Assembly: GCA_022592435.1 (NCBI GenBank)
Contig: JABYQS010000004.1
Location: 372,001 to 436,000, forward strand
Length of the DNA stretch: 64,000 bases
Reading direction: 5' to 3'
From: Cerioporus squamosus
Taxonomy: Eukaryota; Basidiomycota; Agaricomycetes; Polyporales; Polyporaceae
Position 1 is the first letter of the stretch, and each line of letters starts with the position of its first letter. Below the pieces are notes generated by a model. The model searched no databases, was not told the DNA's origin, and saw only the letters and a list, made by a program, of their open reading frames with translations. The position numbers and the translations under genes were made by a program. Positions 46,246 through 49,467 of the stretch are shown here, piece by piece.

Positions 46246-46913
46246 GAGCTATCCAGCCATGTATGCGAAAGCAAGGGAAAGTAGGATAATCATGGGGTGA
46301 TGAATGGCGTAGTCATGCAACTCACAGCTGATGTAGGACGACAAGCTAGATCGCCCGCACGAAATGGAACGCAGGGGGCTATGATAACGCAAATGAGCAA
46401 ATTACTTTGAGATGTATATATAGGACATACGAGCTTCGCGTCGTCTTCACCACGACTCTTGCACTCCTCAAGCCAGGCTTGCTGTGCTTTCTGGTGCGAT
46501 TCACGATATTCCTTGTTGGGCATTCGTATCGCATGGAGGACAATGCCAGTCGCTAAGAGAAGGATCAGCTGATGGACTTGGATGTGATGACTCGGAAGAA
46601 GTTGGGTACTTACGGCGCTCACCACGAGGCCAGTACCCCTTTACGAAGGGAACGTCTTTGAAAGCATCCGTTTGCAAGATGTCGATCGGCACCCAAGTAC
46701 TCAAATAATCTCTAGTTTCGTCATCGTACGAAAGAGGGGGAAGAGTGGTGCCAGGAGGGAAGAAGACGACCTTGCCGTGAAGGACCCAGCGATCGACAAG
46801 CTTGCCTCCCTGAGCCTTGTCCTTCAAGGTTACGCGGATGAGAGTGGGAGCGTTAAAGACCTTGCGAAGATTGAAGTAATAGGATGCGGTGTCGAGCGGG
46901 CCCATGTCCTGAC

Positions 46914-46916
46914 AAT
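46914..46916. repeat. Target site duplication AAT (left)
   Basis: AAT directly before CACTG; the matching AAT is at 49354-49356 directly after CAGTG. The duplicated site lies in the coding sequence of family copy 1. Confidence 0.8.
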
Positions 46917-47817
46917 CACTGCGTTCAGACGGGGGCTACTCGAATTCCGAGTAGGAGGGACTAGGTGGCCCGCTCGTGCTCCGATCAGTGTACCTAGTTG
47001 GGCCGTCCGAGCAGGACCTAGCAGGATTAAGTGACCGGTCTGTGAAGGTCTAGTCGGCCGTCGTGTATGCGAACTACTCCGGGTACCGTAGTAGACGGGG
47101 AGTAGATCGGAACTCAGCTTGGGGGGTTGCCAGGTACTATTTTCGTCGCTATTCTTCGGTTATTCCTTCCTTTTACTTATCATGAGAACTGGGATATAAT
47201 TGAAAATCGAAATATATGGGTATTGATTGTCGTACTACGCAAAATAACAAGTCACAACTTTTATATATAAATGTCTAACCGTCTAGCTCGACGCAGCTGG
47301 GATCTGAGAGTCAACCTATACCAGATCGCCCGCCCGTGCTATCGCGAGGAGCTGAGAGCATCTGTCAAGTACAGGAAGGTCAGGGCATGCGATGACTGAA
47401 AGGCTCAGAGACAACGAGAAGTACTTACCTGTATGCGCGGGGCCCGAGATTGCTGTAAGACCATGGAGCACGTACTGAAGTATCAGCAGCACATCGGAGA
47501 CTCGGATGACGGAGACGCACCAGCAGTCCATAAGCGCACCGAAGGCTCGGAGATGTCCTAGAAGTTGCATCAGCAACCGTGAACACACGAAAGGAGGCCG
47601 CATACACTCACCTCGCCACCTCGTATCCGGGATCTACAGCCATGTGTCTGGGTCAACGATCTCGCGATATGACGAGAGCGGACGAACTCACCTGCAGCCC
47701 AACTACTGCTTTGCCCTCACTCCTGGACCGAATATTTCGGCATCGCACTCCAACGCGGCTGACGGAGAGAGAGAGAGATCTGTTGATGGAGGTGGGAGGT
47801 GGGAGAAAGGCGACATG
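46917..47817 (+). repeat. Transposon segment L (forward)
   Basis: 901 bp, beginning with the left terminal repeat. Its exact reverse complement is 48134-49034. Towards the inner end it carries a (GA) tract and ends in GCGACATG. Confidence 0.85.
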
Positions 47818-48133
47818 TCGCATCTGTGCTGTTACGACGCTTTAAGTGCGTCGAATACTTACCCTTCGCCCAAGGCCTTCCCTCAGCCAGGACTGGGGCT
47901 GAGTACATAGTCTAGTCGGGACTGTTCAGGCCTGTGCGCTCGTACTCGGGAGCGGGAGCCAGGGCGCGTAGTCGGCGCTCCCGACTAGGTGCGGACAGAG
48001 GAATTGCTCGCAATTAGTATCCCGCCCCGGATAGCTTACCTGTTCGCTTAGCCGGACTAGGCCTAACTACCTCCGAGTGGATTCTCTAGCCAGGCCTAAT
48101 CGGATTTCGACTAGGACCCTCCTGAACGCAGTG
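47815..48133 (+). repeat. Transposon segment R, first copy
   Basis: 319 bp from ATGTCGCATC to the right terminal repeat CTGAACGCAGTG. It is repeated directly at 49035-49353 without visible difference. Confidence 0.85.
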
Positions 48134-49034
48134 CATGTCGCCTTTCTCCCACCTCCCACCTCCATCAACAGATCTCTCTCTCTCTCCGTCAGCCGCGTTG
48201 GAGTGCGATGCCGAAATATTCGGTCCAGGAGTGAGGGCAAAGCAGTAGTTGGGCTGCAGGTGAGTTCGTCCGCTCTCGTCATATCGCGAGATCGTTGACC
48301 CAGACACATGGCTGTAGATCCCGGATACGAGGTGGCGAGGTGAGTGTATGCGGCCTCCTTTCGTGTGTTCACGGTTGCTGATGCAACTTCTAGGACATCT
48401 CCGAGCCTTCGGTGCGCTTATGGACTGCTGGTGCGTCTCCGTCATCCGAGTCTCCGATGTGCTGCTGATACTTCAGTACGTGCTCCATGGTCTTACAGCA
48501 ATCTCGGGCCCCGCGCATACAGGTAAGTACTTCTCGTTGTCTCTGAGCCTTTCAGTCATCGCATGCCCTGACCTTCCTGTACTTGACAGATGCTCTCAGC
48601 TCCTCGCGATAGCACGGGCGGGCGATCTGGTATAGGTTGACTCTCAGATCCCAGCTGCGTCGAGCTAGACGGTTAGACGTTTATATATAAAAGTTGTGAC
48701 TTGTTATTTTGCGTAGTACGACAATCAATACCCATATATTTCGATTTTCAATTATATCCCAGTTCTCATGATAAGTAAAAGGAAGGAATAACCGAAGAAT
48801 AGCGACGAAAATAGTACCTGGCAACCCCCCAAGCTGAGTTCCGATCTACTCCCCGTCTACTACGGTACCCGGAGTAGTTCGCATACACGACGGCCGACTA
48901 GACCTTCACAGACCGGTCACTTAATCCTGCTAGGTCCTGCTCGGACGGCCCAACTAGGTACACTGATCGGAGCACGAGCGGGCCACCTAGTCCCTCCTAC
49001 TCGGAATTCGAGTAGCCCCCGTCTGAACGCAGTG
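48134..49034 (-). repeat. Transposon segment L, inverted copy
   Basis: Reverse complement of 46917-47817, same length. It begins CATGTCGCC directly after a CAGTG end and finishes with CTGAACGCAGTG at 49023-49034, i.e. the left transposon end pointing right. The plus strand here has intron-like GTGAGT and TTCTAG signals (48340-48395), suggesting captured host gene sequence. Confidence 0.85.
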
Positions 49035-49353
49035 ATGTCGCATCTGTGCTGTTACGACGCTTTAAGTGCGTCGAATACTTACCCTTCGCCCAAGGCCTTC
49101 CCTCAGCCAGGACTGGGGCTGAGTACATAGTCTAGTCGGGACTGTTCAGGCCTGTGCGCTCGTACTCGGGAGCGGGAGCCAGGGCGCGTAGTCGGCGCTC
49201 CCGACTAGGTGCGGACAGAGGAATTGCTCGCAATTAGTATCCCGCCCCGGATAGCTTACCTGTTCGCTTAGCCGGACTAGGCCTAACTACCTCCGAGTGG
49301 ATTCTCTAGCCAGGCCTAATCGGATTTCGACTAGGACCCTCCTGAACGCAGTG
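49035..49353 (+). repeat. Transposon segment R, second copy
   Basis: 319 bp identical to 47815-48133. It starts with ATG directly after the inner left end at 49034, the partner of the CAT at 48134-48136. Confidence 0.85.
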
Positions 49354-49467
49354 AATGGCTTTGGGGGCGCCGTATTCATACAGACAGACGCGGGTGATCT
49401 GGTCAAGGGTGAGGAGATAGCCCGACATGTAAATGTCGAACGCCTTAGGTTCCGAGGAGTCGAACAT

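Follow-up and report, generated by a model that had tools for sequence, protein, structure and literature searches.

Organization of the locus

Positions 46917–49353 of the window, i.e. of the 64,000-nucleotide stretch of Cerioporus squamosus DNA analysed here, are occupied by a composite in which the parts of one short element appear twice. A letter-by-letter check identified 46917–48133 as a complete element of 1217 bp with the termini CACTGCGTTCAG...CTGAACGCAGTG, i.e. CACTG...CAGTG, which upholds both the coordinates and the ends that an earlier note on this DNA had given for a simple element. This first copy consists of a left part (S1, element positions 1–901; 46917–47817, plus strand) and a right part (S2, element positions 902–1217; 47818–48133, plus strand), the latter including the right end CAGTG. 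It is followed on the minus strand by an inverted copy of element positions 1–901 (S3, 48134–49034), which starts with CAT and ends at the element's left end, and then, on the plus strand again, by a direct copy of element positions 899–1217 (S4, 49035–49353), which starts with ATG and ends at the right end CAGTG. S4 matches its counterpart in the first copy without a mismatch (0 of 319), as had been claimed. S3 is likewise the inverted copy that the note had described, but not an exact one, as it differs from the reverse complement of the first 901 bp at one position in 901. This sole mismatch between the S1 and S3 arms lies at element position 356, where the window has T at 47272 and, at 48679, C on the element strand (G on the plus strand). 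The base at 48679 is private to S3; all other copies carry T.

The composite is flanked on both sides by AAT (46914–46916 and 49354–49356), the left and right copies of an outer target-site duplication. A further 3-bp duplication is found at the inner junctions: the CAT at 48134–48136, which follows the first copy's right end, and the ATG at 49035–49037, which follows the inverted left end, represent two copies of element positions 899–901 (47815–47817). Both duplications, of equal size, had been noted before and are indeed present. Past the breakpoints, the matches of S3 and S4 extend by 0 and 0 bases. We take the inner-junction pattern not to be a product of chance, since each junction coincides with the final base of a transposon end and the overlap between the two sides of the internal site, at 3 bp, is that of the simple copies of the element. 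Judging from the letters of these junctions, we regard it as certain that a single ATG within a copy of the element received a left end of this family on one side and a right end on the other, and that the usual 3-bp duplication accompanied the joining. What occupies the locus is a young CACTA-like element in doubled, rearranged form, inserted into itself.

In the first copy, the internal target ATG (47815–47817) lies within an intact 12-bp perfect palindrome, GCGACATGTCGC (47810–47821). It is one of two such palindromes in the 1217 bp, where 0.29 would be expected, and the location of the target within it may be due to chance. The only arm base that differs (element position 356) is found directly behind the second 12-bp palindrome, TTTATATATAAA (window 47260–47272, element 344–356). 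The hairpin in the right end of the element is unremarkable (z 0.15).

The interrupted site could be compared with an allelic contig of 11.6 kb (C881), which is 98.5% and 98.9% identical to the window on the two sides of the composite. This contig continues uninterrupted through the site, where AAT is present once and no spacer is missing. Relative to this allele, the composite reads as a clean insertion at one outer target. Because the outer AAT copies match and C881 is empty without a missing spacer, both ends would have belonged to one chromosomal site. Another small contig, C558, stands in a similar relation to the locus of a simple copy, L001 (about 98–99% identity). Since C881 and C558 both look like second haplotypes, the assembly apparently represents both nuclei or chromosome sets, though only in part.

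The composite apparently splits a gene-like frame, which belongs to a locally repeated family and runs on the minus strand through window positions 46501–46916 and from 49354 onward. Searched against Pfam with an E cutoff of 0.01, four ORFs of the uninterrupted allele remained without a match. Stretches similar to the flanks of the composite occur on contig C523 (77–78%) and at C334:422215-422649 (67%).

Copies of the element and assignment to CACTA/EnSpm

The search for further copies covered the window's own assembly (53.97 Mb in 988 contigs), and the copy counts it yielded are lower bounds. At least three further full copies are present, all of them simple: L001 on contig C490, L003 on C108 and L004 on C634. 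Their ends are the same as those of the window element, and 3-bp duplications are found at each of them (ACT, GAT and ACT respectively). Over 1217 bp, L001 shows no difference from the window element, L003 a single one (a substitution) and L004 13. The assembly contains 10 exact occurrences of the end pattern, five of them left and five right ends. All belong to the composite and the three simple copies, and only one of these four loci is a composite.

An empty counterpart of the L001 site is located on C558. L004 lies within a repeat array, whose other units do not carry the element at the places compared (in four of the five units). For the L003 site no empty-allele contig was found in the assembly, with matches of only about 64–81%. 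The empty counterparts of the composite and L001 sites, together with the absence of the L004 element from the compared array units, show that the family has moved recently.

The array on C634 extends over about 52,160–93,621 (L004 and L079–L084) and consists of at least six units that recur about every 7.93 kb and are 98–99% alike in a 600-bp probe; one unit holds the CACTA-like element. It is apparently not ribosomal DNA, as 8.0 kb of it gave no Rfam match at the gathering threshold. The left flank of L003 (L003 901–1500, C108) falls into a dispersed family with 39 further scored matches of about 64–81% identity.

The termini of the element are inverted repeats of the CACT(A/G) type, in which the first 12 bases are identical between the two ends and 43 of the first 60 agree. 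A 3-bp target-site duplication accompanies three of three simple copies as well as the outer and inner sites of the composite. Ends of this form combined with 3-bp duplications of varying sequence fit the EnSpm/CACTA superfamily. CACTA/EnSpm elements also carry clusters of short subterminal repeats. In the element studied here, CTAGTC occurs six times in the terminal 567 bp and is absent from the middle 650 bp; among 1000 Markov resamples of the end sequences, however, a top count of six or more arose 55 times. For fungal EnSpm/CACTA transposons, PMC12730594 gives CAC..GTG termini and 3-bp duplications, whereas the ends of Plavaka differ.

The genome contains matches to CACTA-type transposase models (54 for PF02992 and 108 for PF18759). 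None of these matches was tied to the end type of the composite, and the genome-wide check for an autonomous CACTA transposase, proposed in the earlier note, failed to find a partner with these ends in the assembly. When up to two mismatches were allowed, the end pattern gave 44 matches, i.e. the 10 known ends and 34 inexact ones, as compared with 29 for a reversed control pattern. The nearest of the 44 to a PF02992 or PF18759 match is about 15 kb away (on C95; compared by eye). The single match with one mismatch (C102) was considered as a partner end and rejected, as by eye it looks to lie within a coding gene. None of 50 loci (L017–L066) yielded CACT[AG] ends flanked by a 3-bp duplication; at about 2.5–4 kb in size, these loci would miss longer elements.

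Routes to the composite

Candidate routes were simulated on the element's own sequence. According to the earlier note, the right end of one copy and the left end of another, located either on the sister chromatid or in tandem, had been used together and inserted into the internal ATG. In the sister-chromatid version, the transposase would be supplied from elsewhere; since the longest stop-to-stop frame inside the element comprises 143 codons, we infer that the enzyme is encoded outside it. The two sister chromatids would carry one copy each, and the enzyme would bring together the right end of copy 1 and the left end of copy 2 and insert the pair into the ATG inside copy 2. This single reaction would also split copy 2; its left fragment would be attached by the cut side to the right end of copy 1 and its right fragment to the left end of copy 2, so that the left fragment would be turned round. 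In simulation, this reaction yields the observed 2437-bp structure with a single base differing, and both inner junctions consist of the terminal base of an end plus the 3-bp duplication, as expected of such a product. The other three sister-chromatid outcomes were simulated as well, and none yields the observed order. With one difference in 901 positions between the arms and none in 319 between the right segments, the segments show the likeness expected of sister copies; the two ends would have come from different sister copies. This near identity has little power to tell origins, because L001, at another locus, is also identical over all 1217 bp; the private base of S3 does not tell its origin either.

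The same structure is reproduced equally exactly by two ordinary steps, namely an inverted nested self-insertion at the ATG and a subsequent recombination between the 901-bp inverted left arms, which flips the 316-bp right segment. Simulation of this sequence of events gave the observed structure at all three crossover points examined. Each step belongs to a common class of event, and inverted repeats of such kind recombine readily in yeast. Same-site hybrid insertion and ectopic recombination are described in PMC2775673 as having strikingly similar outcomes. However, insertion followed by flipping needs a second event, the order now seen would be just one of two interchangeable forms, and the nested form has left no trace in the assembly, where all 10 exact ends are accounted for. 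We consider this origin a real possibility, though one that falls clearly short of an even chance. The formation of the doubled 1.2-kb CACTA-like element in one step, by sister-chromatid (hybrid-end) transposition into the internal ATG, we place slightly ahead, as a matter of judgement rather than computation, because no second event is needed; its chance appears to us to be very nearly even. The order of the segments would favour the one-step route if the arms flip rarely, and would be uninformative if they flip often.

A plain nested order could also underlie the present sequence if the assembler had turned the 316-bp middle segment, with reads unable to cross the 901-bp arms. There is one difference between these arms, and a read would have to extend over about 546 bp to connect it with the middle segment. 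Yet the assembly resolves much longer repeats: there is no N in 84 loci taken from it, the closest of 14 compared contig pairs is kept apart at 99.97% over 3390 bp, and the six C634 repeats of one flank are resolved with spacings of 7.9, 7.9, 9.1, 8.0 and 8.0 kb, the widest of which holds the 1.2-kb element. Given this resolution of repeats much longer than the arms, the assembly looks like one built from long reads, which would span 2437 bp, and we regard a wrongly turned segment as improbable. Least probable of all is that the doubling as a whole is an assembly or library artefact and that a single simple 1.2-kb copy resides at the locus. The four segments are almost identical to one another and to simple copies elsewhere, as such an artefact would have it, but a chimera has no reason to make a 3-bp target duplication at both inner junctions, and the private base of S3 is absent from every other copy.

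The tandem version of the earlier proposal, a reversed-ends transposition between two separate copies on one chromatid, employs the same end usage, by which the second copy would have its left part inverted. Two separate insertions would be expected to leave differing outer duplications and a lost spacer, whereas the observed AAT copies match and C881 is continuous, which makes this version very unlikely. Several further routes were rejected. Direct-orientation nesting, unflipped inverted nesting and a flip of the right arms were simulated, none of them giving the observed order; a fold-back at the palindrome would place the inverted arm right behind the first arm, and the observed inverted arm follows the right end.

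The proposal that ends of two copies entered the internal ATG is borne out in part, namely in its junctions and duplication and in the simulated sister-chromatid product, but nesting and flipping fits equally. Because the two-step route reproduces the structure just as exactly, the structure alone is not a footprint of alternative transposition, and the mechanism named in the earlier note is possible and slightly preferred, not established. A caution for genome reading follows: from the arrangement by itself, alternative transposition and a nested insertion with a subsequent flip are indistinguishable. The Galileo study met the same ambiguity at a larger scale and turned to the identity of the two copies (PMC2775673).

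In its full form, the preferred one-step reading states that a fungal CACTA-type transposase carried out a sister-chromatid, hybrid-end transposition into its own element at a palindromic target, and that it left a footprint for which we found no precedent in this superfamily and kingdom; this we put forward tentatively, at somewhat less than an even chance. If the one-step route is true, fungal CACTA elements can use the ends of two copies at once, like Ac/Ds and P, and they invert and duplicate DNA actively, beyond acting as passive recombination sites. With two left and two right ends at one locus, further rearrangements would be expected.

Comparison with known systems

The element shares CAC..GTG-type termini and 3-bp duplications with the fungal EnSpm/CACTA transposons of PMC12730594 and differs from them in being non-autonomous; a doubled, rearranged form is not described in the accessible passages of that source. 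Alternative transposition has been described or named for Ac/Ds, the P element, impala in Fusarium and Sleeping Beauty (PMC8225341, PMC3744419), impala placing non-standard transposition in a fungus on record (PMC8225341), and it has been proposed for VANDAL21 in Arabidopsis. A fungal CACTA case was not found among the matches listed in the open-licence PMC literature, as far as their text was accessible, in agreement with the earlier note, which knew of none.

In Ac/Ds of maize and the P element of Drosophila, the ends of two copies are used together, as we infer here, and the events create a target duplication at the new junctions and an inverted duplication as their product (PMC3744419, PMC8225341 and PMC2775673); SCT in maize gives flanking inverted duplications (PMC3744419). 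Both systems differ from the present case in that they belong to other superfamilies and in that the target of the composite lies inside the element itself. In the double Ds of maize, one Ds copy is nested within another in inverted orientation. Like the composite, it unites two copies of one non-autonomous element, and thereby several ends, at one locus. Its nested order, however, is left, inverted right, inverted left, right, whereas that of the composite is left, right, inverted left, right; in our simulation, one exchange between the arms would interconvert the two. The autointegration of Sleeping Beauty and piggyBac resembles the present case in that the transposon attacks itself and that target duplications and inversion products arise; autointegration of one excised copy yields circles, whereas the composite keeps more than one copy's worth of sequence in the chromosome (PMC3952818).
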